In this document: positions 1,488 to 34,692 of the stretch, piece after piece | How positions within the stretch are numbered: the first letter of the stretch is position 1 | Layout: each line of letters starts with the position of its first letter | Assembly: GCA_947650365.1 (NCBI GenBank) | Contig: OX393549.1 | Location: forward strand, 22,097,572-22,161,571 | Direction: 5' to 3' | From: Chamaelirium japonicum | Lineage: Eukaryota > Streptophyta > Magnoliopsida > Liliales > Melanthiaceae | DNA: 64,000 bases | Notes under the pieces: model-generated | Databases searched by the model: none | What the model was told of the DNA's origin: nothing | The model's input: only the letters and a program-made list of their open reading frames with translations | Position numbers and translations under genes: made by a program

Positions 1488-1569
1488 TGTAAGGTTGTCG
1501 CCAGCTCGGCACATACACCTCTTATAGTTGTATGTGTGTCTCAGTCTGAGGTGTACACTCAACCTTGCA
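1488..1569 (+). other. Structured-RNA motif, copy 1 (AGCTCGGC stem-loop)
   Basis: The outer helix pairs 1488-1497 with 1560-1569 (AAGGTTG with CAACCTT, extended through one G-U pair). The conserved core AGCTCGGC is at 1503-1510. An apical hairpin pairs ACATACA (1511-1517) with TGTATGT (1529-1535), and the 3' strand reads GTGTCTCAGTCTG. The same architecture recurs at 8229-8308 and, on the minus strand, at 34623-34692. It lies in the 5' leader, 223 bases before the gag start. Confidence 0.7.
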
Positions 1570-1791
1570 TCGATAGAAACCATTTGCTAGGGTGCTGCAT
1601 TGCATAATAGTAGATTCTCTATTTGCATAAGTATTCTGATAAAGTACGTACTTTGTTTTCTTTACTAGCATATCATTATATTAGTTAAACTACTATTACT
1701 TAATTGGCACACTAATCTGGACACACAGTCCGCAGTTTGGGCACGTGTAGGAAAACGATTAGTTAGAATTGATTATAATAACATCGTAGAA

Positions 1792-4700
1792 ATGGCGGAA
1801 CAGCCGCAAGCAATCACCTTAGGGGATTATATGTATCCCACTAGGGCTACACAACCTTCTTGCATAACCTTACCCAATACTAATGCAAAATTTGAATTAA
1901 AATCTGGCTTAATCCAAATGCTTCCCGTCTTTCGGGGAATGGAGCAGGAAAATCCATATCAACATGTGAGGGAATTTGAGGACATATGTGGAACAATGAA
2001 ATTCGATAATATGTCCGAAGAAAACCTCAAACTTAGGTTATTTCCCTTCTCGCTAAAAGAAAAGGCTAAAGCATGGCTTTATGCCTTACAAGCTGGATCC
2101 ATAACTACTTGGGTAGGCCTACTCGAGCTCTTTTATAGAAAATTCTATTCTAAACAAAAGACGGCCTCGATTCGTCAGGCCTTGAATGTGTTTCACCAAC
2201 TGGAAGGTGAAGCTCTCTATAAATACATAGAAAGATTTAAGGACCTACTTCTGCACTGTCCACATCATGGCTTTGAAAAAATTAGACTAGTCCAAATCCT
2301 TTATGAAGGGTTGAACTACCCATCTAAGACCATGGTAGAATCATGTTGTAATGGTGAGTTCACCAAAAAGACAGCAGATCAAGCCTGGACCTACTTAGAA
2401 GAAATTGCCGAGAACACACTACAGTGGGAACCAATCAATGAAGAATATAGGAAACCCCTCCCTATTGCGCAAGGTGGGCTCTATAAAGTGGAACCTAAAT
2501 TCGAAGCAGAAGCTAAACTAGCTACTGTGATGAGACGCTTAGAGGCTCTAGAAATGAATCAAGGAAATAGGACTCCCACTCCGAATACCTTAGAGGCACT
2601 AAGTCTTAATCAAACTATGAGTTGCAATAATGAGCTTAGCTTTCCTAATTGTTCAATTTGTAGTGAGCCTACCCATGCAGATCATCGATGCCCGATGGTA
2701 GGGGGACAAGAAAATAATATGGAAAAAATTAATGCTTTGTATCAAAATAATCGTTTTGATAATCAACAAAGGTATAATCCATATTCAAACACTTACAATG
2801 AAGGATGGAAGAATCATCCAAATTTCTCGTGGACTAAAGGTCCGTACCAAGGTGGCCCATCTCAATCTGTACCACCTCCAGGATTTCAAAAGCCACCTAT
2901 ACAAAATGCCACCCCTAACCCAGATAATCAAAGAATCAATTCTCTAGAGGAAACGATGAAACTATTAGCTCAGAATACCCTCCAATTCCAACAGAGCACC
3001 GCACAAAGCATTAGTGCTAACACGCAATCTATTGCGAAGTTAGAATACACTGTTAGTCAACTAGCTGATTCTTTGAATACAAGGGATAAGGGTACATTCC
3101 CGAGTCAACCTGAGGCTAACCCTAAAGGATCAAATCTAAGGGGTCAATTTGAAATTCATGACATCAAAGGAAAAGGCCATGCGCAGGCCAATGCAATCAC
3201 TACACTTAGGTCAGGACGGCAAGTTGATAACATGATAGAACCTCCTAAGGAAACTGAGGAACCTAGGCAGAATGATATAATAACTGAAGAAACACCTGAA
3301 GAGGAGCCAAAATCACAAGAGGAAACCAGGGAGAACACAATACACGATACTGAAAATATGGCATCACCTAGTGAACCACCTCTTAGAACCTATATTCCTA
3401 GAGCCCCATATCCTCAAAGGCTAGAGCCAGCAAAGAAGAAAATGCAAATGGACAATATGTTAGAAATTTTCAAACAAGTTAAAATCAACATTCCACTCTT
3501 AGATGCAATCCAACAAATACCTACATACGCTAAATTCTTAAAGGATCTTTGCACTTTTAAGAAAGCAACTAATGTACCCAAGAGAGCATTTCTGGCTCAG
3601 CAAGCTAGTTCGGTTATTTCATGCTCAACCCCTATCAAATATAAGGACCCTGGTTGTCCTACTATTTCCTGTGAAATAGGGGAATATCATATTGAGAAAG
3701 CCTTGCTCGACTTAGGTGCGAGTGTCAACCTCCTTCCATATTCCATATATGAAGAACTAGGTCTGGGGGAGTTAAAACCCACTAGATTGACCCTCCAGCT
3801 AGCTGATGCTTCAATTCGATATCCTAAAGGGATAGTGGAAGATGTCCTCATCAAAGTGGGAGAGTTTGTATTCCCTGTTGACTTTGTGGTCCTGGATACA
3901 AAACCACCAACTGAATTTACTAATCGAGTACCGGTAATCTTAGGGCGACCTTTCCTAGCAACATCGAACGCACTAATTAACTGTCGGAATGGTGTTATGA
4001 ATATCTCTTTCGGTAACATGACAATACAAGTGAATATATTTAATGTGAGCAAACAACCGAGAGATGAAAGTGATGAAGTAGAAGAGGTCAACTACTTGCA
4101 AGAACAAGAAGAAAGTTTAGTATCGCAAGTAAACTATGATGACCCACTGGAAGCCTGCCTTGCATATTTTGGAAAAGATTTTGATATTGATGATCATATC
4201 AATGAAATCAATGCACTACTAGAAGCTACCCCTTCTTTCGGAATGGACAAATGGCAGCCTAAGCCAGAAATCCTCACACCTTCTCTGACACCACCTGTAC
4301 CTTCAATAATAAAGCCCCCGAAGTTAGAACTAAAACCATTACCACAAAATCTTAAATATGTATTCTTAGGATCTGCTGAAACTCTTCCTGTCATAATAGC
4401 TTCAGACCTAGACGAAGACCAAGAGAAACAACTTGTTGAAATCCTTAAGGATCATAAAGAAGCTATAGGATGGTCAATAGCCGATATAAAGGGCATAAGT
4501 CCCTCTGTGGTTCAACATAGAATCTATCTCGAGGAAGAGACTAAAACAAGTCGAGAACCGCAAAGGCGGCTAAACCCTGCAATGAAGGAAGTGGTTAGGA
4601 CAGAAGTACTAAAACTTTTGGATACCGGAGTGATTTACCCGATTTCAGATAGCTCCTGGGTGAGCCCTGTCCAAGTAGTTCCAAAGAAATCGGGTATCAC

Positions 4701-7224
4701 AGTGGTGATAAATGAAGGTAATGAGTTGGTGCCTACAAGAGTGCAAACTGGATGGAGAGTATGTATTGACTATAGGAAGTTAAACTCTGCTACACGAAAA
4801 GATCACTTTCCACTCCCTTTCATAGATCAAATGCTAGAGCGGTTAGCCGGACATGCTTACTACTGTTTTTTAGATGGTTATTCCGGTTATAACCAAATTC
4901 CTATAGCACCAGAGGATCAAGAGAAAACTACATTCACTTGTCCATTTGGAACGTTCGCCTATAGACGCATGCCCTTTGGGTTATGTAATGCACCTGCTAC
5001 ATTTCAGCGGTGTATGACTAGTATCTTCTCTGATATGGTTGAACGTTTTCTGGAAGTATTTATGGATGACTTTTCAGTCTTTGGATCCAATTATCAAGAG
5101 TGCTTGCAACATTTAGAACTCGTGCTTGTAAGATGCAAAGAGAAAAATCTAGTGCTAAATTGGGAAAAATGTCATTTCATGGTGAAGAAAGGAATAGTCT
5201 TAGGGCATGTCATCTCTGATAAAGGGATTGAGGTAGACAAAGCAAAGATTGATCTAATCTCTAACCTTCCACCCCCACGATCGGTTAAAGATATAAGATC
5301 ATTCTTAGGCCATGCTGGGTTTTATAGGCGATTCATTAAAGATTTTAGTAAAATTTCAAGACCGTTATGCAATTTACTTTCCAAAGATGTACCTTTTACC
5401 TTTGATGAATCCTGTCTAGAAGCTTTCGAGCGATTAAAAAAAGAACTTACCTCTGCCCCCATCATCCAGCCTCCTAACTGGTCCATCCCATTTGAAATCA
5501 TGTGTGACGCATCAGATCATGCCATTGGAGCCGTTTTGGGTCAAAGAGTAGATAAGCTGCCCCATGTAATCTATTATACGAGTCGTACTCTAAATGATGC
5601 ACAGCTAAACTACACTACAACTGAAAAAGAATTGTTAGCTGTAGTCTTTGCCCTAGAAAAATTTAGACCTTATTTGATAGGATCTAAGGTCATCGTGTAT
5701 ACAGATCATACGGCTTTACGGTACCTTCTCTCAAAAAAAGATACCAAAGCTCGATTGATTCGATGGATCCTTCTATTACAAGAATATGATCTAGAAATTC
5801 GGGACAAAAAGGGCAGCGAAAATGTAGTCGCAGATCATCTCTCTAGGTTAAACTTAGATTCCTTTAGTAAGGAACTTCCTCTACATGAAAGTTTTCCCGA
5901 TGAGCAGTTGCTACAAATCTCTAAACTCCCATGGTTTGCAGATATAGTAAACTACCGAGTCACTGAGGAGATGCCTAGTCATTGGTCGAAACAAGATAAA
6001 TCTAAATTTTTATCTGAGGTAAAATATTTCTTTTGGGATGACCCCTACCTTTTTAAATATTGTCCCGACCAAATCATTCGAAGATGTGTCCCTGATCATG
6101 AGCATAATAGTGTGATAGCATTTTGCCATGACTATGCTTGTGGCGGCCATTTTAGTGCTAAAAAGACAGCTGCCAAGATTCTGCAATGTGGCTTCTACTG
6201 GCCCACGATGTTTAAAGATTGTCATGCATTATGTGTAAGTTGTGAACGATGTCAAAAGCTTGACAAAATAACCAATCGAAATATGATGCCCCTAAATCCT
6301 ATTTTGATAGTTGAAATTTTTGACGTTTGGGGTATAGATTTTATGGGGCCATTTCCAAGCTCTTTCGGAAATTTATATATCTTGCTTGCAGTTGATTATG
6401 TTTCAAAATGGGTTGAGGCAATACCGACCAAGACCAATGATAGCCAAGTAGTGATCAAGTTTGTAAAAGATTATATTTTTAGTCGGTTCGGTACACCTAG
6501 GGCGATCATAAGTGATGGCGGAAGCCATTTTTGTAATAGCACCTTCGATAGATTAATGAAGAAATATTCGGTCACCCATAAGGTTGCTACACCCTATCAT
6601 CCACAAACAAGTGGCCAAGTGGAAGTCTCGAATAGGCAGATCAAGCAAATTCTCGAGAAAACCGTCAATCCGAATCGAAAAGACTGGTCGGTACGGCTGA
6701 TAGATGCGTTATGGGCCTATCGAACTGCTTATAAAACTCCACTAGGAATGTCCCCATATAGGCTTGTGTATGGTAAGGCTTGCCACTTGCCAGTTGAATT
6801 AGAACATAGGGCCTACTGGGCAATTAAGACATTCAATTTTGATTTACCCTCAGCCGGTAACCTTCGCAAGCTACAACTGAATGAGCTTGATGAAATACGA
6901 AATGATGCATATGAAAATGCAAAAATCTATAAAGAGCGGATGAAAGCAACACATGATAAATCCATCCTAAGAAAATCATTCGAACCGGGTATGAAAGTTC
7001 TCTTGTACAATTCCAGATTAAATTTATTTCCCGGAAAATTAAGATCTCGTTGGTCTGGCCCCTTTATAGTTCGTGTAGTTCATTATCATGGGGCCATAGA
7101 AATTGAGAACCCCCAGAATGGTGATATTTTCAAGGTAAATGGGCAAAGGCTAAAGCCATTTTTAGAACTAAAAGATAAGGTTGTAGAGGAGATTCTCTTA
7201 CAAGATCCTCTTTACACTGACTAA
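1792..7224 (+). CDS. gag-pol: Athila-type Ty3/gypsy Gag-Pol polyprotein, intact
   Basis: This single open frame of 1810 codons encodes the capsid protein and all replication enzymes of element A. Gag covers about residues 1-430, with a CCHC zinc knuckle (C-x2-C-x4-H-x4-C) near 286-299. The retropepsin is near 640, with the active site written D-L-G-A as is usual in Athila, and a later ILGRPF. Reverse transcriptase spans about 970-1160, with F-M-D-D near 1090 and the long insertion before the [12 protein letters not shown] block. RNase H is near 1235-1365, starting at MCDASD. Integrase follows with an HHCC zinc site, the catalytic D, D and E ([21 protein letters not shown]) and a C-terminal GPF module. 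The start ATG has A at -3 and G at +4. No stop or frameshift interrupts it, so it may be functional. Confidence 0.96.
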
Positions 7225-7440
7225 TCCCATAAGAACCATGTCGGGCTGACGACACTAAACTTAGCACTTACTGGGAGGTAACCCAGATTGCATGATGCAT
7301 ATATTTATAAACTTTCGAAAAAAAAAAAATATATCTATATAAAAAAATTATAAAAAAATAAAATTTATGTGTACATGTTTTTTTTCTTCATTTTTATATT
7401 AGCATTTTTGTTTTCTGATTTCTATATGACAAAAATTGGT

Positions 7441-7460
7441 ATTATCTTTTCCTTTTCAGG
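7441..7460 (+). promoter_or_regulatory. Candidate 3' splice site ahead of the retropepsin ORF
   Basis: A long pyrimidine run ends TTTTCAG^G with the boundary after 7459, 111 bases before the ORF at 7571. Joined to the donor after 1332 it would remove gag-pol and put this ORF first on a subgenomic RNA. Inferred from sequence only. Confidence 0.5.
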
Positions 7461-7570
7461 ACAGACTTAGTTCATTCAGAATCTATCTCACGAGGAGTGC
7501 ACCCCTGCATCTTCACTACAACAAGACAATCTATATATCAAGGGAGGTTGGCTAGTAAACACTTGCATTC

Positions 7571-8089
7571 ATGTCTACATCTGATAATCTTGTCTCATCA
7601 TTTTCACACCTAGAAATAGAGACTGATGTTGATGACCATTTTGAAAGATCAAATGTGTTTGAAACCATTGGATGCCTTATGGATTTTGCTCTATCTGTTA
7701 CTATTTTAGTGGATAGCGGTAGCTGCAATAATTTAATTTCTAAATCTTTTACTGATGTCCTCGATATAGAACATATCCCCATCAAAGAACCATATTCATT
7801 AGCATGGCTGTTTAAGGCTCCCACAATAGATGTCACACATAGGGTTTACCCCGCCATATCAATTCAGGATTACTCTAATGTAATCCCTCTGGACATAGCA
7901 CTCATGGATTCTTATGATATAGTTCTCGGTCGACCTTGGTTATATGACCGCCACGTGCTGTACGACGGGCGACTTAACACTATGAACTTTCTCTTTCAGC
8001 ACAAATATTTCACACTCTGGCCTCAACGCCCATTATTCCATAATATCATATCCCTACCACCGATCGCGAACATTGAGGACAATGTCTAA
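7571..8089 (+). CDS. Standalone retropepsin-like protein (172 aa) in the env position of element A
   Basis: This is a short protein made almost entirely of one aspartic-protease fold of the retropepsin type. The catalytic loop VDSGSCNNLIS is at about residues 55-65, and the flap-side strand YDIVLGRPWLYDRHVLYDG is near 116-134. The order of conserved blocks (DSGSC, then PYSLAWL, then LGRPW-x-DR-x-x-x-DG) resembles the protease segment of chromovirus-like Ty3 Pol proteins more than Athila's own protease, which has DLGA and is already present in gag-pol. I see no signal peptide, membrane segment or RT. Athila elements usually keep an envelope-like ORF here. The frame is intact in a very young element, which suggests it is maintained. 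Whether it cleaves Gag, has another role or is a passenger is unknown. Confidence 0.8.
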   Translation: MSTSDNLVSSFSHLEIETDVDDHFERSNVFETIGCLMDFALSVTILVDSGSCNNLISKSFTDVLDIEHIPIKEPYSLAWLFKAPTIDVTHRVYPAISIQDYSNVIPLDIALMDSYDIVLGRPWLYDRHVLYDGRLNTMNFLFQHKYFTLWPQRPLFHNIISLPPIANIEDNV

Positions 8090-8092
8090 TTT

Positions 8093-8105
8093 AGGTTTGG
8101 GGGTG
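8093..8105 (+). promoter_or_regulatory. Second polypurine-tract-like site in element A
   Basis: AGGTTTGGGGGTG, immediately after the stop of the retropepsin ORF, differs at one base from the true 3' polypurine tract at 9722-9734. It could be an extra plus-strand priming site or a duplicated tract. Confidence 0.5.
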
Positions 8106-8228
8106 ATTTTCATTGCTTGCATCGGGCGTTTTAATTTAGTACGTATTGATATATTTTATTTTATTTTTTTTTATTTTTTAAAAAAAGAAAAATAAAATTT
8201 ATTATAAAAAAAAAATTTGCATCAACTT

Positions 8229-8308
8229 ACGCTATAGTGGGACAGCTCGGCATATACGTCTTGGCGTATATGTGTCTCGTCTGTAGTCCCCTACCAAAAC
8301 TATAGCGT
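8229..8308 (+). other. Structured-RNA motif, copy 2 (AGCTCGGC stem-loop)
   Basis: This is the best-paired copy. A perfect 9-bp outer helix joins ACGCTATAG (8229-8237) to CTATAGCGT (8300-8308). A second helix joins GGGAC (8239-8243) to GTCCC (8286-8290). The core AGCTCGGC is at 8244-8251, an apical hairpin pairs ATATACG (8252-8258) with CGTATAT (8265-8271), and the 3' strand is GTGTCTCGTCTGTA. Helix sequences differ from copy 1 while the cores are the same, as expected for a conserved RNA fold. Confidence 0.75.
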
Positions 8309-9721
8309 TTGTATAGAAATATATAGGAATTTGCATTTGCATGTTTTTATTTTCTTTTTCATATTTTAGTTTCTTATCGTATTACTTTTGCCTTCCGCTT
8401 CGTTATTTTCAAAAAAAAAAAAAAATTATATATATATTTCACCTTTATTTCAGGTTTTGTAATATAATTCGATTGTACTCGAATAGGACTATAAGGCACC
8501 TGGTAATCAAGGTATAAAGTCCAAGGATCAGCTAGAAAAGTATGTCTAATATGGTTCTGACCCTTAGTAACCTTTTAGAAATTGTCAAAACAAACTAGAC
8601 TTGACTTTTCACTTCACATCTGGCTTACACCTCTAGGGTCTAGATTCAAAGCTTTCATATCACCTAATAGTCACTTGGAGTCCTGATGAACCATGCGGAT
8701 CTGGTTCACTTGGTTTGAAAAAAAAAAATATATCATTAGAAAAGCGACCAGTGAATTCTAAGGTATAGCGGAAAGGGCTACCTATTAGCATGGTATAGGA
8801 CCTAATTATGTAAAAGTCTTAACCTGTATGCCCTAATATGAGTGAAGCCTGGTCGATAGGGTTATGAGAATGATCCTATGGATGCAGAGTGAATCAAATA
8901 TAAAGGCAACATGAGGATGGCTACCTAACTCATGAGAGCGTTGGCAGCGTGTCATGGGCATAGAGTGCAGCTGGCATGGTACAAGTTAGGAAGGGATATA
9001 TAATTAGATTAAAAAAAAAAAAAAGAAAAAAAAAAAGAAAAAAAAAAAAAGAAAAAAAAAAATGAGACCGAAAAAAAAAAGAGAAAAAAAAAAAAATAGT
9101 GTGAAAGCCGTCGCTATAAACAATGTGGGGAAACTGGAATATCACATATAAAGCCGAAAGGTATTAAGGTGAATATCCACAACTCTCACTAGCCTGTCTA
9201 GATTAGCTGGTTTTGACTCAGGTTCTAAGGTCGACTTTGACCGTTCTAGAAGACAGTTAGAATGATATGAATGTAGAGAACCAAAACCCCAGTTGTGTTT
9301 TGCCCAGACAGCACCGTGCACTCGAGCATAGTTGACCTTGACCTTTTCTAGCGGGAAACTAATAGTTAGAACCTAAAGTGCTTACTTCGAAAGCTGAAAC
9401 TTGGGCTAGATGTCTTGCGAGTCTTGTGCCTTAGAAATTCTATTTTTGAGTACTTTTTAATTATTCTGCGAAACCGACTTTTCTTATTTCTTATTTTTAA
9501 AAATAAAAAAAAAATGAAAAAAAAAGGGGTTGGAATTTTGTGGGTAGATTCACTGCAAACCCTCACGAGATAAAACTCGTCCACTGGGGTAACCCAGGGG
9601 TTTAAAGGCTTGTTGCACATGCTAAGTGCAATCGCGATTCCTGCGAAAGTGAGTTAGGAGTTTTTATTTTGTCATTTACTTTGTTTATTTTTCTTTCCTT
9701 ACTCGAGGGCGAGCAAGATTT
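8309..9721 (+). other. Non-coding 3' region of element A
   Basis: No ORF here resembles a known protein. The stretch holds an acceptor-like TTTCAG ending at 8453, several poly-A runs and a purine-only tract at about 9011-9093. Such long untranslated 3' regions are normal in Athila-type elements. Confidence 0.7.
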
Positions 9722-9734
9722 AAGTTTGGGGGTG
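9722..9734 (+). promoter_or_regulatory. 3' polypurine tract of element A
   Basis: AAGTTTGGGGGTG sits immediately before the TGATGAGCG start of the right LTR and would prime plus-strand DNA synthesis. Confidence 0.85.
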
Positions 9735-12457
9735 TGATGAGCGTCCATTTGGTGCGAATTATCCTTTCTTAATCATGCACATAGCGTCACTTTGCTACGT
9801 AAAACTTTCATAATACACGTAAACTGCATGAGTTTCTTTACACCACGATATAGTAGACTCTCATACGAACCCAACGGCATATTGGTTCACTCTCATACAT
9901 ATCATGCATGATAGTTATACTGTCTGATAATCTAAATTATTCTTTTGTCGATAATCGCATATTGGAATCTTATGGACGTCATTTCATGTGTGATTTTCAG
10001 GGAATTGATCCGGTTATTGATGCAGTCAGCTCAAGAGCGTTATGATCAAGCAATGGATATTCTCACGGCAATGCGATGGAAGTTGTACAGGCCGGATGCG
10101 GACATTTCTGACGGACCGATGATGAATGCGGATGATGTTAAGTGGGTGACCAAGCCTTCCACGTGACTCTATTGCTCTTGAACCCATTAACCAACCCAAG
10201 TTGGCCATTCCCTACTTTTCTTATTTCACCATCGTACCCATCGCAACCGTCTATATACAAAGTCGCCCGTAGACCCGCCATGGCCAAGACTTCGATCGAA
10301 TCGCACAAACCCGATTATCTCTCATGACCTCTTCTTCCGTCTAAATCGAAGCCGCACATTCCCATAGGTCTTTAAGTATAAAGCCCGGCTCGGTCGTGCA
10401 CCCACCTCTCCTTTCCACTTAATCGCAGCCGTCCCTTACCATTCCTAGCAGGCATGCATGTATGTGCATGTGCAAAACCGAACCATGCATGCATGCAGCT
10501 GTACCCGAGCAAACCCCTTAACAGCACTCACTCTCTCAGCCCAATCACAGCCGTCCACACGTGCCGATGCATGCAGCCGCTCATCCACTGTCTCCCTAGT
10601 AAAACCGGAATCCAGCATCTCTTCCCACCTAATCCTAGCCGTCCGATCCCCTCCGGATCTCCTTGCGTTATATCCAATCCTCATGCATGCAGCTTCCCCA
10701 CACAATCACAACCTCTCCAAAAATCCCAGCCGTCCGATGGCATGCAGCCGCCCAGCGTTCCGCCCACCTCAACCCACCTGATCCCATGCAACCGAGGCCC
10801 AGCTGCATACCACCGAACCAATTACAGCCGTCCGATTAGATCACATGCAGGCTTTAAAAAACCGGAACCCATGCGATCCCTCTCTCCGCCTGGTTTTTCT
10901 CTCTCTCTAAAACCGATCTTCTCTCACCCGGGATTCTCTCTCTAAACTCTCTTTCCTAAACCGAGACCCCTGCAAGCTGCCCACGTCTCTCTCTCCGGGA
11001 TACTCTCTCTCTCTACGGGATTCTCCCGATCGCGCCTCTCTCTCTCCTCCTACAAACCAGGCGCTCATCTCTCTCCCGTTTCTCTCTCCTTCCATAACAG
11101 ACCCCAGCTCCGAACTTCTCTCTATCCCAACCGTCTCTCTCTCTCTATCTCCTCATCACAGTCCCGCAGCCCCTCGCGATCATCCTGGACTCCCATCACA
11201 CCGTCCATCTTCTCAACAAATCATGCCCCATTTATCTCTCCCTCTCCCGTTCCCTCTATCTCTCTACCGTCTTTATCTATTTCCAAACGGATCACAACCG
11301 TCCATTCCACCCATCTCCTTGCACCCAGTTCTCACGTCCTTCCTTGAACCCGTGAACCCTAAAAAGCTCCTCATCTCTTATATAAAGGGTGGCACGGACG
11401 AACCAAAGGGGGGACGAACGGAGAGCTCTCACATACCCGAACATCTCACCATCTCCATCATCACCACCTTCACCAACCCGGAGCTCTTGGGACCATCTAC
11501 AACCCGCATCTCTCATCCCCATCTTCATCACCACCGGAGGAGCCCTCATAACCTTACACCGCCCACCATCTTCATCTTCACCATCACCCGGGCCACACCC
11601 CAGCATCTACGGACCCGGACTACGCATCTCGAAGCCACGGCCATCACCACGCAACCGTCTCCAAGCCGAGCCGCGTCATCATCGTCGCACATCGCCGTCA
11701 TCGCCGGGTTCGTCGTCATCTGCAAAGGAATATCCGCCATCAACGACCACATGGCCATGCGAGGCTAAACCACCGTTCTAAGTTCTGGATGAAGCCTTGT
11801 AGTTGTATCTAAACCATGCTCTTATTTGATTTTCATATTTTAGTGCGTTTAATGAAAATAAAGTGATCTTTGCTCATTCATGCTTGATTAAAATTTCTGT
11901 AATAAGTTAGTTTTATTCTCCGTTATTATCAGAGTTCTACAGAGGTTTATCGCATAGTTTTATTCTTCGTCATTACGAGTAGTTTTACGGAGAATCATTA
12001 CATAGTCTTGGCTTCTGTTATTACTCCGAATTTTACGGAGAATTATTTCTGGCTTATTCCATTAAAGCGAGGAAGATCACTACATTCGTGATCGTAATAG
12101 TGCTCCATTGAATATCATCCACGGAGATAGATTGACTTCGTATCTCCGTGAGAATCCTGGAAATCATCTAAAAGTATAGTTTAGATCGCTACTTGTGCGG
12201 ATTCTAAAGCTTAGAATATCCATCCATATAGACTACACCCTCAATCTTAATTAGCTTTCAGTTTTGCGTTCCGTAATTCCCGTTATAAAACAATTTCACA
12301 AAAAAATCAACCTTTTTAAACTAAGATATAAAATTAATTAGCTTTAACTTTCCTTTAATTAGTTTTGATCCAAGTCTCTGTGGGATCGACCCGTATTTGC
12401 CACTGTCTATCAGATAGACGCCGTGCACTTGCGGTATAACAATTTAAAATCACAACA
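9735..12457 (+). mobile_element. Element A right (3') LTR, complete (~2.7 kb)
   Basis: It starts TGATGAGCG after the polypurine tract and ends CACAACA at 12457. The last 1125 bases match the window's first 1125. The U3 part (9735 to about 11410) is not duplicated in the window. It contains CATG-rich DNA near 10450-10500, CT-rich runs at 10880-11280 and repeated CCGTCC boxes. The start could be two bases earlier. The base-side flank is GCTCT; the matching left target copy lies outside the window. Confidence 0.92.
11379..11386 (+). promoter_or_regulatory. TATA box of element A right LTR
   Basis: TATATAAA in the same context as the left LTR. It divides a U3 of about 1.68 kb from an R/U5 of about 1.05 kb. 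Confidence 0.7.
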
Positions 12458-25630: not shown

Positions 25631-25639
25631 TGTCTTCTC

Positions 25640-26014: not shown

Positions 26015-26017
26015 TCT

Positions 26018-26353
26018 TCAGCCTTTTCCTTCGTCCTCCTGTCCTGCTGCCGCACCGACTCCCACGGGTCGACCGACAGCTACCGACAGGTCTTCTAACG
26101 TCTCTGGCACCGGTGCAGTGTCTTCCGCCGGGAAATCGCTGAGGACGTCCGCAAGTGCTTGGCCCTTGACTGCTTTCCGAGGCACATACCGAGGACCAAA
26201 CTCTTGCAGCTCTGCAGCCCACTTGCTCAGCCGACCTGCCCGAGTAGAATTATCCAGTACTTCCTTCAGGGGGTGATATACCCTTCCTTGTTTGCGTTGG
26301 TCGATCGGTCGTACCCCCGAGGAGTCTGTCGACTGATCCTTCCAGGTGTTCAC
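26018..26353 (-). pseudogene. C-terminal fragment of the Ty3 RNase H in element C
   Basis: Only the end of the RNase H domain remains: RAGRLSKWAAELQEFGPRYVPRK followed by GQALADVLSDFP, then an acidic linker. Its upstream edge runs straight into the 145-bp tandem array; RT and the front of RNase H are gone. Confidence 0.82.
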
Positions 26354-27030
26354 CGGACGGTCACGTCCTTCGCAGGGACCAGGGACCTGTCGACCGGTCG
26401 GCCAAGTGGAAGAACTCGCTCGGAGTGTTATGTACCACTTGGTTTAGGTTGGTCGACCGGTCGTACCCTGGCGGGGTCTGTCGACCGATCTTCCAAGGTG
26501 TTCACCGGCCGGTCTCGCCCTTCGCAGGGTCCTATCGACCGGTCGGCCAAGTGGTAGAACTCGCTCGGAGTGTTATGTACCACTTGGTTTAGGTTGGTCG
26601 ACCGGTCGTACCCCGGCGGGGTCTGTCGACCGATCTTCCAAGGTGTTCATCGGCCGGTCCCGCCCTTCGCAAGGTCCTGTCGACCGGTCGGCCAAGTGGT
26701 AGAACTCGCTCGGAGTGTTATGTACCACTTGGTTTAGGTTGGTCGACCGGTCGTACCCCGGCGGGGTCTGTCGACCGATCTTCCAAGGTGTTCACCGGCC
26801 GGTCTCGCCCTTCGCAGGGTCCTATCGACCGGTCGGCCAAGTGGTAGAACTCGCTCGGAGTGTTATGTACCACTTGGTTTAGGTTGGTCGACCGGTCGTA
26901 CCCCGGCGGGGTCTGTCGACCGATCTTCCAAGGTGTTCACCGGCCGGTCTCGCCCTTCGCAAGGTCCTGTCGACCGGTCGGCCAAGTGGTAGAACTCGCT
27001 CGGAGTGTTATGTACCACTTGGTTTAGGTT
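26300..27030. repeat. Five-copy 145-bp tandem array replacing RT in element C
   Basis: GGTCGACCGGTCGTACC recurs at 26451, 26596, 26741 and 26886, with a diverged copy at 26300, an exact 145-bp period. The units share AAGTGGTAGAACTCGCTCGG and CGACCGGTCG palindromes. The array occupies the place where RT should be. Confidence 0.92.
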
Positions 27031-27104
27031 GCCTCAGGTAACCATTATTCTCTCGCATGAACAAGAACTCTGAGCAAGTGCATTTTTATTGAATAGATCC
27101 GGCG

Positions 27105-28124
27105 TTACAAAACTGTCAGTTCTTTACATTCAACTGACAGGTCGATCTTCATCAGGTCCCCCGACACTGTCGGTTCTTTACGTTCAACTGACAGGTCGGT
27201 CTTCAACAGGTCCTCCGACTCTGTCAGCTCTTTACGTTCAGCTGACAGGTCGGTCTTCAGCAGGTCCCCCGACGCTATCAGCTCTTCACATTCAGCTGAC
27301 AGGTCGCTCTTCAGCAGGTCCCCCGACACTGTCAGCTCTTTAAGTTCAGCTGACAGGTCGCTCTTCAGCAGGTCCCCCGACACTGTCAGCTCTTTAAGTT
27401 CAGCTGACAGGTCGGTCTTCACAAGGGATTGGCCCTCTCGCGCTCCTACGCTTGATCGGGCGCGGAGCTGGAACGTTGGATCTTCTTGACTCTGCTTAGC
27501 AGTCCAGAGGTTGAGGATGCCCAACTCAGTGCCGCCTTCACCTGGCTCTCCTCCTTCGATTTGGCATGTCGTCTTCAGATGGATGGCACTGAGCTCGCAC
27601 TTGGCTGCCGAGGACTGGTCACCTCGAATGCTCATCACACCCTTGTCGGTCCAAAACTTCACTACCTGGTGGGCCGACGAGGGGACCGCATCCAAGTGGT
27701 GGAGCCACGGTCTTCCGAGGATGATGTTGTACGCCGAGTGAGCTTCTATTACGATGAACCGGGTAAGATTAGTGAGATGCCCTGTTGTGATCGGGAGGGT
27801 GATCTCACCAACCACCCTTGCAGCCTCCCCCGTGAAGCCCGTTATCGTCGACGACGACTCGGTCACCTGTCCGCGATCTAGCTGCATGGCGTCGAAGGCA
27901 CTGAGGAAGAGCACATCTACCGAACTTCCGGCGTCGACCAGAATTCTCTTCACAAGACAATTGGCTATCTGGAGCCGTATGACCAGGGGATGGTTGTGAG
28001 GCCTCTCTATTCCGACCAGATCCGCCGCCGAAAACTGTACTACAGCTTCCACTCTTGGCTCGGGGCGGATGACAGGGTCGAGTACCACATGGTGGACTTG
28101 CCTTGTTTGTTCAATACGCCGCAC
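27105..28124 (-). CDS. Element C protease ORF with 18-residue tandem repeats (339 aa)
   Basis: The frame encodes a Tat-type retropepsin: catalytic LVDAGSSVDVLF near residue 60, then NIILGRPWLHHLDAVPSS near 134, and a C-terminal CELSAIHL segment near 171. A linker follows, and then about six copies of an 18-residue unit related to SAELKELTVSGDLLKSDL (54-bp DNA period, 27113-27430). The charged repeat is not part of the protease family. It keeps frame because the unit is a multiple of three. Upstream on the minus strand, gag-linker coding is joined through several stops, so the protein is probably no longer made as one Gag-Pro. The active-site D-A-G is a normal variant. Confidence 0.85.
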   Translation of the reverse strand: MRRIEQTRQVHHVVLDPVIRPEPRVEAVVQFSAADLVGIERPHNHPLVIRLQIANCLVKRILVDAGSSVDVLFLSAFDAMQLDRGQVTESSSTITGFTGEAARVVGEITLPITTGHLTNLTRFIVIEAHSAYNIILGRPWLHHLDAVPSSAHQVVKFWTDKGVMSIRGDQSSAAKCELSAIHLKTTCQIEGGEPGEGGTELGILNLWTAKQSQEDPTFQLRARSSVGAREGQSLVKTDLSAELKELTVSGDLLKSDLSAELKELTVSGDLLKSDLSAECEELIASGDLLKTDLSAERKELTESEDLLKTDLSVERKEPTVSGDLMKIDLSVECKELTVL

Positions 28125-28352
28125 CTGTCGGTCGACGGCATTCGCCGACGGTACAGGGCCAGGGTACCCGTAGACGGCGTCTACCTCTCGGAGCTGGCGC
28201 CTTTCTGGTGGAGGGCCTGGTAAGCGCTGCGCCGTCGCTCCTCGCTGGACTTCCCCTACCGCTTTAGTCTCTTTACGTTGAGGGAGGTCAATGAAGCAGC
28301 CAATATGGCCGGCCTCAATGAGATCCTCAATATGATGTTTGAGCGCCCGACA

Positions 28353-29237
28353 CTACAGGGTAGTGTGGCCTTGGCCCTGGTGGTACTCACAGTACCTTGA
28401 CGCATCTCTGGCTCCTCTCTCTCCAGGTTCAAGCGGTTGCGCCCACTTGAAGTATGGTTCGCCCTTGATAGCTTCCAGAATCTGGTCAATGGGGGCGTTC
28501 AGTACTGTGAGCTCCCTGTTCCACTGCGGCCTCGCTGGCCTGTCTTGCCTTTGCCGCTTCGCCTCGTGCCGTGTCGCATCCCCCTGCTGCTTGTTGACGT
28601 TCTTCACAGCAGCAGGCTTTGCGTAGCCCTGGTGCGGGATTCTAGTTTCCACCGCCTTCCTCTTGCGATCCGCGTCCTCGATCTTGATGTATTTCTCAAC
28701 GCGTCGCGACAGCTCGTCGATCGTCTCCGGGGTTTGCTTGATGAGTGACGCGTTGACGAGCTGGGCAGGCTGAATGGCGTTCTTGAAGGCCGCGATCACC
28801 ATGCGATCCTGCCCGTCTGCGTCCGCCAAGCTCAGGTACTCGGACCTGAACCTATGGTAGAATTGTCGGAGCGTCTCCTTCTGGGTCATACTCATCCCGA
28901 AGAGTGACTCCAGAGTCTTCAGCTCCCGGCGATTACATCGGTACTGGTCGATGAACCGCGTGCTCAGCTCCGAGAAGGAGGAGACGGACGAAGGCCTAAG
29001 CTTGTGGAACCATTCGAGGGGGGTTCCCGACAAGCTGTTGGCGAAGGTCCGGCAGAGGATATGATCATCCTCGTGCGGGACCAGAGCATCCCGGAAAGCC
29101 AGTACATGCTCCACCGGGTCTTTCGATCCGTCAAACTTGGGGAGGCATGGAGGATTCCATCCTCGAGGGAATGGCTCCCGGAGTAGCCTCTCGACAAGCG
29201 GCGACCGTGCGGCTCCTCGGATGGCGACTTCCTCCAA
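28353..29237 (-). CDS. gag: Element C Gag core (294 aa)
   Basis: A Retrotrans_gag capsid domain: PCLPKFDGSKDPVEHVLAF near residue 32, LSGTPLEWFHKLRP near 68, then ESLFGMSMTQKETLRQFYHRF near 107 and a basic linker. It ends in the Cys/His cluster YCEYHQGQGHTT near 285, where an in-frame TAG removes the last cysteine. Sequence beyond the stop continues as ALKHHIEDLIEAG in the same frame, so the original Gag was longer. It is the same Gag class as element B but clearly diverged. Confidence 0.85.
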   Translation of the reverse strand: MEEVAIRGAARSPLVERLLREPFPRGWNPPCLPKFDGSKDPVEHVLAFRDALVPHEDDHILCRTFANSLSGTPLEWFHKLRPSSVSSFSELSTRFIDQYRCNRRELKTLESLFGMSMTQKETLRQFYHRFRSEYLSLADADGQDRMVIAAFKNAIQPAQLVNASLIKQTPETIDELSRRVEKYIKIEDADRKRKAVETRIPHQGYAKPAAVKNVNKQQGDATRHEAKRQRQDRPARPQWNRELTVLNAPIDQILEAIKGEPYFKWAQPLEPGERGARDASRYCEYHQGQGHTTL

Positions 29238-29282
29238 CCGGTCGGGAGCTCGGACCCCCGGTCGGTCTCGTTGGATCTCCTC

Positions 29283-30056
29283 TCACTCCCCGAGTCGCTT
29301 CGACGCATGCACCCGAATGCGCTCGTGTACGCTCCTCCGATCAGCAGTATGAGCCGGCTGCCGACTAGCTGGCGTCATCCGAGTGTGGTGACTATCACTC
29401 GGTTGACGATGATGTTCTTCGTCTCGCTTCGGGCGACGCACTTGTGCCGAGTCCGTCTTCGAGTGATGCTTGGAGGCAGGCGGCTGTCGGGGGTGTGCTC
29501 CGAGCCGGGACCAGACATCCGAGCGTGCCGACGCCGCTCGTGCATGTTTTGTTCTCTCCGCAGGCTCCGGGCTACTCGAGTCTCGCCCATCGGGATTTGC
29601 ACTCTGGACCTCCACCGAGCGATTACCCCTGACCTCCACCTGAGGCACTGGTTGCGGCTGCGTTTGCACCGGTGGGGTAGCTTGAGTGGGGAGACTTTGT
29701 CCCGCTTGGGCCACCATGCCCTGGTTGAGCAGACCACCCGTCGGTGCGGCCCGCACGAAGTCACGCAACTCCTCGTAGTTGCGCTGCATCGTTTGGAGCT
29801 GGGTGGTGAGAGCTTGCTGGGTCATCATCATGGTGGCTAGAAAAGCTTCCGATAGACCCCCTGTCAGAGGAGCCAGGGTTGCTACCGGGGCTTGACTGGA
29901 CTCCCCGACCCCCAGTACAGGATTCGCTAACGTGACTGCGTGCTCCGTGTCCGTTGGCTGTTGAACAAGACGCCTGACGTCATTCGCATCTCCGAGTGGT
30001 GCGGCTTCGGACAGGAGCTGCGACGTCGAGCGAGTACGATACGGTCCACCGGCCAT
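29283..30056 (-). CDS. Element C Gag N-terminal region (257 aa)
   Basis: This frame starts 107 bases inside the primer site (MAGGPYRTRSTSQ). It reads through a low-complexity Gln/Pro/Ser/Arg-rich N-terminal extension with no capsid motif. Tat-lineage Gags commonly have such a disordered N-terminus. It was probably continuous with the capsid frame at 28353-29237 and is separated by a frameshift or stop near 29240-29285. Confidence 0.65.
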   Translation of the reverse strand: MAGGPYRTRSTSQLLSEAAPLGDANDVRRLVQQPTDTEHAVTLANPVLGVGESSQAPVATLAPLTGGLSEAFLATMMMTQQALTTQLQTMQRNYEELRDFVRAAPTGGLLNQGMVAQAGQSLPTQATPPVQTQPQPVPQVEVRGNRSVEVQSANPDGRDSSSPEPAERTKHARAASARSDVWSRLGAHPRQPPASKHHSKTDSAQVRRPKRDEEHHRQPSDSHHTRMTPASRQPAHTADRRSVHERIRVHASKRLGE

Positions 30057-30162
30057 CGTTCTTCAACCGTGTGGTCGTGGACTGCTAGTTGCAGGTAGCT
30101 TCGGACTGGTCGACACCCACGGGTCAACAGTCGAAAGCTCTAGTAGGAAGTCTCGAAGACTG

Positions 30163-30180
30163 ATCCCACAGACGGCGCCA
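30163..30180 (-). promoter_or_regulatory. Primer-binding site of element C
   Basis: Minus strand TGGCGCCGTCTGTGGGAT, four bases from the 5' LTR; identical to that of element B. Confidence 0.87.
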
Positions 30181-30184
30181 AGAT

Positions 30185-31537
30185 TGTGGGGGGTTCTGAA
30201 TCGAACCGGGCGGTTCGGGTGGCGAGCACAATCCAACAAGCCAAAATAAAAACAAACCAAGAATTACATGGAAAACCCCTTCGCAACGTCGAAGGGGAAA
30301 AAACCACGGGCGGGGCGAGAATGCACTAGAACTATCTTTCGGTTACAATCTCTCACCTAAACCCCAATTACATTCCCTGAGGACCGGTCTCCCAAACTAC
30401 CGACCTCTGTAATTTCACTCTGTCTACCGACCGCTGCGGACAGTGTCTGTCTGCAGGTCGCTTGCAAACAGTGTCTGGCTGCTGACCGACCGACCTCCGC
30501 GGACAGACTCTGGGTGCAGACCGACCGACCTCCGCAGACAGCTTCTGGGTGCAGACCGACCGACCTCCGCAGACAGCTTCTGGGTGCAGACCGACCGACC
30601 TCCGCAGACAGCTTCTGGGTGCAGACCGACCGACCTCCGAAGCTCCATGAATTTCGGGACGAAACGGGCAGCGTCTCCTCCAGAAATCTTCCCCCCCTTG
30701 CTGAAGGGGTAGGTCCCCTTTTATAGTGGCGTGGTGACGGTTACACTCCGCGAAAATCGGGCGAGTGACGTGTCCCCGCAATGAGCTCAACCGCCGCGGT
30801 GACGTGGCGCGCGGTTGACACCTGGTCACGTTGGGCCGGAAATCGCGGAGCGTCGTAAGCACCGCGAGATCTCCGGGTTCGGCTGTTGCTTGACACTTCA
30901 GCTCGTTGCATGTCCCATCGAGAGAGAGAGAGAGAGGTTGTTGCCTGGCCGACCTCCTTTTGTCTAGATATACGTCGACCGAGAGCCGCAGGGGGGGGGG
31001 GTGTTGCCTCCCCCCTGGATAAATACCGACCGACCCCCCCTTTCTCTGGGTACATGCCGACCGAAAGGGGGGGTGCTGTTTCCTTGTGGACCAACCGGCC
31101 GACCCCCCCCTCTCTCTGGCTACATGCCGACCCAGGGGGGGTGTGCTCCCTTTGGTGACCGGCCGACCCCCCCCCTCTCTCTGGCTACATGCCAACCCAG
31201 GGGGGGTGTGCTCCCTTTGGTGACCGGCCGACCCCTCCTCCCCTCTCTGGCTACATGCCGACCAAAGGGGGGGGGGTGTGCTTCCCTTGGTGACCGGCCG
31301 ACCCCCCCCTCCCCTCTCTGGCTACATGCCGACCCAGGGGGGGGGGGTGTGCTTCCCTTGGTGACCGGCCGACCCCCCCTCCCCTCTCTGGCTACATGCC
31401 GACCCAGGGGGGGGTGTGCTCCCCTTGGTGACCGGCCGATCCCCCCCTCCCCTCTCTGGCTACATGCCGACCCAAGGGGGGGGTGTGCTTCCCTTGGTGA
31501 CCGGCCGACCATCTCCAAAAAAGGAGTGGTACGCACA
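30185..31537 (-). repeat. Element C 5' LTR
   Basis: 1353 bp, with the same internal 35-bp and ~64-72 bp arrays as the other LTR. It ends ACGCACA just before the target copy ATAAT. Confidence 0.93.
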
Positions 31538-31836
31538 ATAATAATAATAAAAAAAAAAACAGGGCATTATATCCTACCCACCTTATTATAATTTTCATCC
31601 CAAAAATTAACTATTATACTGAGTATACAACTCTACCAGCTTCTGATATCAAAGCAATGAAATATAAAAATAACAAAGATGAACTTATGGCTGGTACAAA
31701 TATTATTACTAATATTATAAATAAAAAAAACTAAACTAATACACCATACTCACTAAAAAAAAAAGTCTGTCTCAAAATCCACCACTCACAACTTTACCCT
31801 CTCAACTAACGGCACCGATACTTGAACATATAAGTA
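31538..31836. other. AT-rich spacer left of the copia half-element
   Basis: An ATAATAAT run and A-rich DNA without a recognised gene. It begins with the right target copy of element C. Homology to the copia element starts abruptly at 31837. Confidence 0.6.
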
Positions 31837-32823
31837 GAAGATCTTTTCTGTCCTAGCTCTAGAGCTTCTCCTAGGTTCAGTGGGAATGTTATCCTCAATT
31901 GGTCTTTTGTTTCTAGAGCACGATGCTATGTCAGTGTCGTTCGATCTAGGTTCTGTTCCAATTCTAGTCCTAAAAGGAAAGATGTCTTCAAAATAGGTTG
32001 CATCTCTAGCTTCCATTATTGTGTTATTAGTAATTTCACTAATCTGGGAATTAAAAACTAAAAATCGGTTAGTGTTGCTATTTGATGCATAGCCTATGAA
32101 AATGGCATCTATGGTTTTTGGACCGATCTTTTTCTTTTGATTTTCAGGGATCTTGACTTTCGCCAAACACCCCCACACTTTAAGATAATCCAAAGTGGGT
32201 TTTCTATTCTTCCACATTTCATAAGGCGTGAGGTTATTCTTTTTAGAGGGAATTCTGTTAAGTATGAAACAAGCTGTTACTAGTGCTTCTCCCCACAAAT
32301 TTTCAGGTGCTCCTGAGCTAATTAGCATGGCATTAACCATGTCCATAAGGGTTCTATTCTTACGTTCAGCTACTCCGTTGGATTGGGGGGTATAGGGAGC
32401 TGTGACTTTATGAATTATACTGTGTTCTTCACAGAACTCGGTTAACTCATGAGAGGTATACTCTCCACCTCGATCGGATCTAAGTATTTTTAAGGTCTTA
32501 TCTCTTTGGTTTTCATCCTCAGCTTTATAGACCTTAAATTAACTTAGTACCTCATCTTTGGTTTTTATGAGGTATAGATAGCAGTATTTTGATAGGTCAT
32601 CTATGAATGTGACGAAATATCTGTTACCTCCTCTTGTAGTCCTTCCTGAGTCGCATACATCACTATGAACTAATTCGAGAATTTCAGAATCTCTATCGAT
32701 TGTTTTAAAAGGTTTCTTAGCTTGTTTTGCTTCTACACAGGTTTCACACTTATCGAGGTTTTGGATATCTGCTTTAGGTATTAGATTTAGATTCATCAGT
32801 CTCTTGATGGAGTTGTAATTCAC
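31837..32823 (-). pseudogene. Copia half 1: GAG-pre-integrase and integrase, truncated
   Basis: Minus-strand pol fragment of a Ty1/copia element. The pre-integrase HHCC-like segment ([14 protein letters not shown]) is near 32750, and the integrase core begins [34 protein letters not shown] stop and disrupted frame lie near 32530-32540. It resumes with SDRGGEYTS and the C-terminal NRIPSKKNNLTPYEMWKNRK region, ending at RTEKIF. RT should follow, but homology stops at 31837. The last 651 bp (31837-32487) recur inverted at 34924-35574. Confidence 0.88.
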
Positions 32824-32841
32824 ATGACCTAGTCTAGCATG

Positions 32842-33321
32842 TCAGATAGGTGGAGATTCAACATTTAGTACAGAAAGACTTTTATTATTTTCGAAAGGAA
32901 TACAAACATTTAGCTTAAATAAGCCATCACTCATAAATCCTTTCCCAATAAAAGACACTCCTTTTGTGATTACAACTTTATTCGATTCAAACACGAGTTT
33001 ATAACCGTGTTGAACTAGAAGAGAACCGCTAACAAGGTTGCGTCTAATCTCTGGAACGTGATAAACTCCATGTAGGGTTATGATCTTGTTCGATGTAAGC
33101 TTTAAGTTGACTTGACCCGTTCCCAATACACGAGCTTCGGTATTATTTCCCATGGTCACAGCTCCTCCACCTGAGACCTGATAAGTGGAGAACCAAGAGC
33201 GATCAGAACATACATGGATGTTAGCTCCGGCATCAATCCACCAGTCAAGTGCTTGCAAAGTCAAGTTTACTTCTGGAATAGAGGCAACTGACCTGAAAGC
33301 ATTCTCAGATGAGGTGACCAT
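32842..33321 (-). CDS. Copia half 1: protease segment (159 aa)
   Basis: Copia-type retropepsin: WWIDAGANIHVCSDRSWF near residue 27 (active site D-A-G), MGNNTEARVLGTGQV near 56 and YHVPEIRRNLVSGSLL near 87. A single stop at its downstream end (near 32840) separates it from the pre-integrase segment. Upstream it is split from the gag frame by another stop near 33325. Confidence 0.85.
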   Translation of the reverse strand: MVTSSENAFRSVASIPEVNLTLQALDWWIDAGANIHVCSDRSWFSTYQVSGGGAVTMGNNTEARVLGTGQVNLKLTSNKIITLHGVYHVPEIRRNLVSGSLLVQHGYKLVFESNKVVITKGVSFIGKGFMSDGLFKLNVCIPFENNKSLSVLNVESPPI

Positions 33322-33327
33322 ATTTAC

Positions 33328-34308
33328 TTAGGAAGGAGGTTGTGGTCCGTTCTTCCTAGGCTGAGAAGGTCCAGTCTTCTTGTAGAAGCAGTTCGATGCC
33401 ATATGGTTGGTTCGACCACATACGTAGCAGCAGCGTACTCCTTCTACTGGCTTCTTCTGGAATTTGGGGTTTTTGGTGAAAGGCTTCTTGTGGAATGGTT
33501 TATTTGGTTTGGGATAAAAGGACTTGGTTTTCTTATAGTGTTTAGGTTTTGATTCTATATTGTTTACCTTGGGTTTGGACTCGGAAAGAGATTTTTCTCT
33601 AAGTCTATGTTGTTCTTCTATCCTAATGGAATTGAAGACTTGGGTTAGAGATAGTTCTCCTTGGGAATGGTTTAGTTTTCTAGCAAAGTCAGACCAGGAT
33701 GATAGGAGTTTATCTATCAAGCAAGCTATCTGGAAGTTTTCATCTAGGGTTGATCCATTATCCTTGAGATAATGGACTAGATTCTCAAACTCGTGAATTT
33801 GTTCATTCATCGGTTTAGAATCATTCATTCTAAACTTGTTGAAATCAGCTACTTTGTAGCATTTGATCCCAGCATCATCTAGGCCGTACTTAGAATTTAG
33901 GGTATCCCAAAGTTCTTTGGCATCTTTTGAGGTATAGTAGATGTCATATAACCTATCGGAAAGGGATCCTAGGATACGGTGGCGACAAATATATTCTATT
34001 TCCTCAGGAGTCCTAGATGTGGAAGTAGAATCAGAGCCATCTGGGTTAGATGATCCACTACTGGTTTGGGCATGTTTCTCTATAGGGTTGGACTCATTTT
34101 CTGATTCGGTGGTGCTATCACTTATTGCAGACATAAGTCCAAGCAAGGACAACCAGAATCTCATCTGGTTTTGCCAACGCTTGAAATTAGCCCCATCAAA
34201 TTTCTCGGACTTCGCACTAAGGTACTCAGTTCTAGGGGAAGTCATTTCCAGGGTATGGGAGTTAAGCCTGAAATGAAACAAATTTTGTGTCAAAACAATA
34301 TTGTGCAC
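33328..34308 (-). CDS. gag: Copia half 1: Gag (up to 326 aa)
   Basis: Ty1/copia Gag of the UBN2 type. KFDGANFKRWQNQMRFWL near residue 37 is the signature of the capsid N-terminus. A DUF4219/UBN2-like body follows (AKELWDTLNSKYG, LPSSW-like LLSSWSDFARKL), then a Lys/Pro-rich linker and a CCHC knuckle, CYVCGRTNHMASNC, near 299. The biological start is probably the Met at residue 23 (about 34242), because the preceding residues overlap an acceptor-like TTTCATTTCAG. The frame is open. Confidence 0.9.
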   Translation of the reverse strand: MHNIVLTQNLFHFRLNSHTLEMTSPRTEYLSAKSEKFDGANFKRWQNQMRFWLSLLGLMSAISDSTTESENESNPIEKHAQTSSGSSNPDGSDSTSTSRTPEEIEYICRHRILGSLSDRLYDIYYTSKDAKELWDTLNSKYGLDDAGIKCYKVADFNKFRMNDSKPMNEQIHEFENLVHYLKDNGSTLDENFQIACLIDKLLSSWSDFARKLNHSQGELSLTQVFNSIRIEEQHRLREKSLSESKPKVNNIESKPKHYKKTKSFYPKPNKPFHKKPFTKNPKFQKKPVEGVRCCYVCGRTNHMASNCFYKKTGPSQPRKNGPQPPS

Positions 34309-34622
34309 TATTTTCTACGTGAACCAAAGTTATCTTCTTTTGTATAATAGTTGACCTGAGTATCGCTAGATTTGACTTTAGAAGTCCAAATGAGTTCTCC
34401 AAAGTATGACAGCCAGATCAGCTCCAGATGGGTGGTGGAGCACTTGGCTCGCTTAAATACCAGTCCGTTTTAGGCACGTATGCCTTTTTGACAAGCTTTT
34501 CTAGACACTGTCTAACTAAGGATGATTCATCGGAATTCTTTAAGTCACTTCTTCGTGAGAGACCCAAGTATAAATAAAAGAAAATAATTAAAGGGTTTTT
34601 TTAAAAAAAAAATTATCAAAAT

Positions 34623-34692
34623 CTCTAGATTATAGGGATACCAGACTAGTCACACATACACGAATGTATGTGCCGAGCTCTCCCTACTAGAG
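34623..34692 (-). other. Structured-RNA motif, copy 3, in the copia leader
   Basis: On the minus strand CTCTAG (34687-34692) pairs with CTAGAG (34623-34628), and TAGGGA (34681-34686) pairs with TCCCTA (34633-34638). The core AGCTCGGC is at 34672-34679. ACATACA-TTCG-TGTATGT forms a tetraloop hairpin (34654-34671), and the 3' strand is GTGACTAGTCTGG. The fold and core match the two copies in element A, although this is a different superfamily. It lies about 380 bases upstream of the gag start. Confidence 0.72.

Follow-up and report, generated by a model that had tools for sequence, protein, structure and literature searches.

A predicted RNA hairpin with a conserved internal loop in Ty3/Athila-type and Ty1/copia retrotransposons of Chamaelirium japonicum, a possible host-read element

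The constitutive transport element (CTE) of Mason-Pfizer monkey virus (MPMV) is described as a long stem-loop with two internal loops (PMC7551171) that is placed directly upstream of the polypurine tract (PPT; PMC11379458), and the RNA transport element (RTE) of the mouse intracisternal A-particle (IAP) and the mouse musD transport element (MTE) are named as export elements of animals (PMC12786077). In plants, exonuclease-resistant RNAs (xrRNAs) of the xrRNA_D kind are reported from intergenic regions and 3' untranslated regions (UTRs) of viruses (PMC6299227), and the barley retrotransposon BARE2 is said to keep dimerization and packaging signals (PMC3735527). Here we describe a predicted RNA hairpin that occurs three times in a 64,000-nucleotide (nt) stretch of the Chamaelirium japonicum genome (contig OX393549.1, positions 22,097,572 to 22,161,571; hereafter, the window). 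Two copies belong to an Athila-type Ty3 retrotransposon, which we call element A, and the third belongs to a Ty1/copia element on the opposite strand.

The three copies, first noticed by a reader of the letters alone, were recovered at the same positions and with the same helices by pattern matching and folding (Table 1). Common to all of them are the core AGCTCGGC, an apical stem of 8 base pairs (P3) and a 3' strand GTG(T/A)CT..GTCTG. In the predicted folds of all three RNAs, the outer helix P1 is separated from a short helix P2 by a 3' bulge, and each copy has one conserved internal loop. This loop is asymmetric, with the 5' strand AGCUCGG and the 3' strand UGUCUCAGUCUG, UGUCUCGUCUG or UGACUAGUCUG (consensus UG(U/A)CU(C/A)(A)GUCUG). 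The apical loops differ among the copies (CCTCTTATAGT, TCTTGG and TTCG), and the outer helix of copy 3 is predicted to be extensible to 34699/34615.

The minimum free energies of copies 1, 2 and 3 are -29.3, -32.9 and -29.9 kcal/mol, with z-scores of -3.47, -4.47 and -3.36, and for each copy none of 200 dinucleotide shuffles folded to as low an energy. The details of the folds are less uniform. The predicted pairing within the conserved internal loop varies between copies, most of AGCUCGG being paired in copy 1. In the minimum-energy fold of copy 3, P3 is shifted by two bases, and the register common to all copies has a pair probability of 0.80-0.83. When 250 nt of flank were included on each side, the pair probabilities of copy 1 dropped to about 0.5-0.6, while copies 2 and 3 held.

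On both strands of the window, the bipartite pattern GCTCGGC..GTGnCT..GTCTG occurs at three places with 0-2 substitutions, and many other stretches match at 3 substitutions. The core octamer by itself is common (five exact matches in the window, two of them unrelated). A covariance model built from the two Ty3 copies alone, R1, recovered the copia copy with 39.4 bits (E 6.7e-9 for the window); its next matches, both antisense, fall on the apical stems of copies 1 and 2 (E 0.0017 and 0.12), which are nearly palindromic, and the best one after these had an E of 0.77. In a template test that requires the core, the stem and the 3' strand together, copy 3 scored 18 out of 20, a value reached by none of 1276 dinucleotide shuffles of the window, whose maximum was 17. 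A generic test of hairpin-flank similarity was uninformative, since the 60 matches listed were taken up by ordinary repeats and 521 shuffles scored up to 19/20. R1 and the template test thus bear out the original prediction of one fold in Ty3 and Ty1/copia elements.

The outer flanks were compared separately. They pair with energies of -16.0, -22.6 and -21.8 kcal/mol in copies 1, 2 and 3, respectively, which 2.3%, 0 and 0 of 5000 shuffled flanks and 1.2%, 0.2% and 1.4% of 5000 local background samples equal; in copy 1, the pairing exceeds that of shuffles only moderately. In copies 1 and 2, P1 consists of 10 contiguous pairs at an equal offset from the core (-6 to -15), and between these two copies all 10 pairs are changed on both sides. 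A 10-pair run of this kind was found at 63 of 11528 background positions. That the outer helices differ in sequence and nevertheless pair is therefore upheld by the flank controls and by P1. The further claim that the copies show the pattern of compensatory evolution finds support in P1 of copies 1 and 2; for the core the evidence is weak. When the cores of the three sequences are aligned, both partners are changed in only 2 of the 14 pairs, which 60 of 500 column shuffles equal, and the column covariation is not significant; copy 1 has P2 one base out of register here, which leaves three P2 pairs with one non-pairing row. Taken together, these results support the presence of one constrained RNA fold in two superfamilies of long terminal repeat (LTR) retrotransposons.

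The similarity of the cores could also have arisen by recombination, if the motif had been passed between the elements or to both from a third sequence, so that the core would reflect ancestry and not constraint. The cores are indeed very similar, copies 1 and 3 sharing an identical run of 15 nt, and template switching could achieve such a transfer. However, the outer helices are unrelated in sequence yet paired, with all P1 pairs of copies 1 and 2 replaced, and the copies have no flanking DNA in common. When the copies were aligned locally, each with 400 nt of flank on either side, the similarity outside the core amounted to A/T-rich, low-complexity runs and short matches at chance level, which speaks against the recent common DNA ancestry that had been named as grounds for rejecting a constrained fold. 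We consider exchange by recombination distinctly unlikely. An ancient transfer followed by constraint would fit both explanations.

The hairpin had been said to belong to no named class, and our searches agree. Rfam 15, which includes the hammerhead families, gave no match at gathering score anywhere in the window and none at E<=5 for copies 2 and 3; the three matches to copy 1 (E 4.7-7.8) are all far under the gathering score. This bears on a self-cleaving ribozyme, one of the functions considered at the outset. Such a ribozyme would be of small size and combine conserved strands in its loops with helices of variable sequence, as here, and plant retrozymes are reported to carry hammerhead ribozymes (PMC4918200). 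But no Rfam family matches, cleavage in the leader would separate the primer binding site (PBS) from gag-pol, and element A, young as it appears, has two copies. We regard self-cleavage as extremely improbable. An H/ACA small nucleolar RNA was rejected by eye only, the flanks being paired where the boxes should sit.

The positions of the copies in their elements agree with the original prediction: copies 1 and 3 lie in leaders ahead of gag, and copy 2 follows the last open reading frame (ORF) of element A. Element A, a Ty3 element probably of Athila type, appears to be young because its LTR ends are 99.8% identical over 1125 nt. Its leader measures 666 nt from the LTR terminus (...ACAACA at 1125) to the likely gag ATG, and copy 1 ends 223 nt 5' of that start. 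For copy 3, the distance to the likely start codon of the copia gag is 378 nt. A candidate PPT is TTTGGGGG at 9725. If this tract is genuine, the 3' LTR begins at about 9733, and copy 2, between the last ORF and this LTR, would lie in the 3' noncoding region, outside the LTR and 1.4 kb before the inferred PPT. A PPT-like tract, TTTGGGGGTG, occurs twice on the forward strand, at 8096-8105, just after ORF2, and at 9725-9734, the inferred 3' LTR boundary.

A place in the leader before gag, as found for two of the three copies, is one where packaging or dimerization signals of genomic RNA can lie. The Gag domains of the two elements, however, belong to different Pfam families (PF03732 in the Ty3 and PF14223 in the copia element), which makes a Gag-specific packaging signal unlikely. 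Dimerization is disfavored by apical loops that are not conserved and, as judged by eye, have no 6-nt palindrome, and neither role agrees with the far downstream position of copy 2. Both functions had been suggested for the hairpin, and we now hold them to be highly unlikely.

Because the internal loop is present in two superfamilies whose Gag families differ, a host partner seems more likely than a Gag partner, and the loop is probably bound by a plant protein. We tentatively favor the possibility that the hairpin is a host-read RNA element for the handling of unspliced genomic RNA, in nuclear export or retention. It would be a cis-acting RNA element of about 80 nt, in which the outer helices are free to vary, the apical stem has 8 base pairs, and the conserved internal loop is the binding site of the plant protein. 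The step served would be the export from the nucleus of a transcript that still contains introns, or its retention there, as with the animal CTE, RTE and MTE. Should splicing occur at the predicted sites, copies 1 and 3 would be intronic and have to be retained in the genomic RNA; copy 2, which follows the last ORF and precedes the 3' LTR, would be broadly where the CTE of MPMV is found. For these reasons, export or retention of unspliced RNA is ranked first. What was computed is the predicted fold and a conserved core that both kinds of element share; the host protein, the step and the use of the splice sites are what we infer, and judging from their position, the hairpin stretches would be transcribed. 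That the core is common to Ty3 and Ty1/copia elements that have no flanking DNA in common argues for such an element. It is possible, if still doubtful, that it represents an undescribed class of host-read structured RNAs, separately acquired and kept by Ty1/copia and Ty3/Athila elements for export or retention of their unspliced RNA. No such signal for plant LTR elements is described in the portions of the literature consulted.

The putative 5' splice site at 1333 is 155 nt 5' of copy 1 and is the sole MAGGTAAGT in the window (chance expectation 1.13); a 5' site scoring >=11.5 within 170 nt upstream was found for 0.14% of sampled positions. Copy 1 falls between this site and the strong putative 3' splice site at 7459, whose use would yield an ORF2 mRNA. 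A strong 3' site at 8453 follows copy 2 within 145 nt, and another at 34268 follows copy 3 within 355 nt, the equal cases occurring at 2.2% and 2.4% of sampled positions, respectively. From these positions, copies 1 and 3 may lie in introns. The 43 nt between the strong 3' site at 1289 and the best 5' site (1290-1332, forward strand) resemble a tiny leader exon.

Several points weigh against a role in the handling of unspliced RNA. The splice sites are predictions from a weight matrix with general frequencies, the distances were chosen after the sites were known, and equally strong sites are present in other parts of the window. The 5' site of the copia element is weak, 31% of positions having one as good in the 120 nt upstream, and no LTR is seen before the leader of this rearranged element. 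Each copy here has one internal loop, as against two in one RNA for the MPMV CTE, and copy 2 does not adjoin the inferred PPT as the CTE does. Finally, two near-identical Athila-type contigs found by homology, L019 and L020, are without the motif in the parts they cover.

The leader positions also allow a reading in which the hairpin serves translation. It would bring an initiation factor to a long leader, either as a cap-independent enhancer or as an entry site, and the 3' copy would act like a 3' cap-independent translation element. The length of the element A leader and the distances of copies 1 and 3 from their likely gag starts are in line with it, as are A-rich stretches seen by eye 5' of copies 2 and 3. 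On the other hand, Rfam has no matching family, and ribosome shunting needs a common short ORF, which the copies do not have: such an ORF ends 44 nt upstream of the core in copy 1 and another 49 nt upstream of it in copy 2, but in copy 3 no short ORF begins within the preceding 260 nt. We rank a translation element second and judge it to be rather unlikely.

A compact fold with conserved unpaired strands would equally suit an xrRNA-like structure that stops a 5'-3' exonuclease and shields the RNA downstream. In copy 1, ACCTC of the apical loop can pair with GAGGT starting at the last base of GTCTG, and by eye this pairing extends to 7 nt (ACACCTC/GAGGTGT) if two bases of the apical stem join; in copy 2, TTGG can pair with CCAA at 8294. 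A pseudoknot is reported as needed in the three xrRNA_D that were mutated (PMC6299227). Here, however, it is not common to the copies, the sole match of copy 3 being 6 nt long and 66 nt past the structure, and Rfam again gives no match. An exonuclease-resistant RNA thus appears quite improbable to us.

Relatives of the hairpin were sought beyond the window. Among viral contigs, the pattern AGCTCGGCA..GTGnCT..GTCTG matched 18 stretches, none of which has an apical stem in the right place when its fold is inspected by eye. One of them, L017, has a hairpin that is displaced, and the best R1 match has an E of 0.15; we take these stretches to be chance matches. A second pattern found three stretches in viral contigs, with no R1 match at E<=10, and reverse transcriptase queries of the Ty3 and copia elements found no relatives in these contigs. 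The tight motif pattern had no match in prokaryotic genome contigs. With the Athila reverse transcriptase as query, two loci were obtained in genome contigs, L019 and L020, which differ so little (99.7% identity over 9013 nt) that they appear to be in effect one element. The motif was not found in them; the sequence of L019 begins only some 160 nt ahead of where gag is likely to start, as judged by eye, so that the leader position is not covered. The scans of viral and prokaryotic contigs thus gave no homologue of the hairpin. Both are in bacterial records (Solirubrobacter sp. CPCC 204708 and Geminicoccus harenae CPCC 101083), where plant Athila-type contigs are probably contamination.

The motif was not described in the openly licensed literature searched, which is weak evidence of absence. 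The letters AGCUCGGC do recur there, in 13 papers, for example in the barley small RNA miR5055, given as UCUCGCUACUGAGCUCGGCAU (PMC3060140). This small RNA contains AGCUCGGCAU, as expected of the 5' half of the motif, and it may derive from such a hairpin or match by chance, as octamers recur by chance. Two short sequences accompany the Ty3 copies. TTGCAT is repeated in the noncoding DNA around them, five times in 1314-1623 (copy 1) and four times in 8117-8337 (copy 2), and no such cluster was found near copy 3; TGTCTC, which resembles an auxin response element, is seen by eye in copies 1 and 2 and not in copy 3.

Regarding the elements themselves, a PBS complementary to tRNA-Asp is described for the Diaspora/Calypso lineage, and related elements can have an envelope-like gene downstream of pol (PMC1142308). 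In that place element A has ORF2, a second and separate retropepsin-like ORF; among 28 candidates, two proteins related to its product reached E<=0.001, both unnamed and on short European Nucleotide Archive contigs. The copia element is rearranged. Part of its integrase is present twice in inverted orientation (31837-32490 and 34921-35574; 98% identity over 654 nt), surrounding the leader-gag part, and a 69-nt tandem duplication occupies 34768-34905. Its primer-site consensus has one match only in the stretch searched, with 3 mismatches. By E value, the best named matches to the copia gag come from Asparagus and Iris, at 45% and 44% identity, respectively. This suggests a monocot host, although dicot proteins come next.

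Table 1. Positions of the hairpin copies, the surrounding retrotransposon features and the predicted splice sites in the window
Feature	Position	Strand	Remarks
Copy 1	1488..1569	+	5' leader of Athila-type Ty3 element A; P1 1488-1497/1560-1569; P2 CGCC/GGUG; core 1503-1510; then apical stem; 3' core to GTCTG 1544-1548
Copy 2	8229..8308	+	Between the last ORF and the inferred 3' LTR of element A; P1 8229-8238/8299-8308; P2 GGGAC/GUCCC; core 8244-8251; GTCTG 8279-8283
Copy 3	34623..34692	-	Ty1/copia leader; core 34679-34672; GTCTG 34646-34642
5' LTR, end part	1..1125	+	99.8% identical to 11333-12457; LTR start outside the window
Putative PBS	1132..1149	+	TGGCGCCGTTGCCGGGGA, PBS-like sequence
gag-pol ORF	1792..7224	+	gag, protease, reverse transcriptase, RNase H, integrase; ATG 1792 by eye
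ORF2, retropepsin-like	7571..8089	+	3' of pol; ATG 7571 by eye; domain E 8.6e-5
3' LTR	9733..12457	+	Start inferred from PPT, end from LTR identity
copia gag (Retrotran_gag_2)	33328..34245	-	Downstream of copy 3; ATG 34245 by eye
Putative 3' splice site	1289	+	Tied rank 6
Putative 5' splice site	1333..1338	+	AAG/GTAAGTA; top score of ~128,000 positions
Putative 3' splice site	7459	+	Before ORF2; rank 8
Putative 3' splice site	8453	+	Past copy 2; rank 20
Putative 3' splice site, copia	34268	-	23 nt before copia gag ATG; tied rank 6
Weak putative 5' splice site, copia	34786	-	Rank 440

If two superfamilies do keep one small RNA element, it would offer a handle on the host protein involved. Even if the step served were translation or stability, its sharing independently of Gag points to a host factor, which further plant elements possibly use as well.

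Compared with known systems, the hairpin shares some features with each. Cassandra retrotransposons are likewise plant retroelements with a structured RNA, in their case 5S RNA (PMC12786077), whereas the hairpin matches no known RNA family and is internal. Retrozymes, too, are described as plant retroelements with a small structured RNA (PMC4918200), but theirs is a hammerhead, and no Rfam family matches in this window. The BARE signals are noncoding cis-signals of a plant copia element and are tied to BARE particles, whereas the hairpin is common to elements with different Gag families. The xrRNA_D of Tombusviridae and Luteoviridae resemble it in their small fold, variable helices, conserved unpaired strands and intergenic or 3' UTR places; they differ in their apical-loop pseudoknot, for which copies 1 and 2 of the hairpin offer 5 and 4 nt, respectively, close to the core and copy 3 offers none there. 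Like a CTE, the hairpin is predicted to fold, within the transcript of a retroelement, into a cis-acting structure that has an internal loop, with one conserved loop per copy instead of the two within one long stem-loop of MPMV and simian retrovirus (SRV). The CTE, RTE and MTE are animal elements, whereas the hairpin is from a plant, has two of its three copies in 5' leaders and has an export role that is only proposed. By analogy, like the MPMV CTE and the mouse IAP RTE and musD MTE, it would be a structured RNA of retroelements that is directed at the host.

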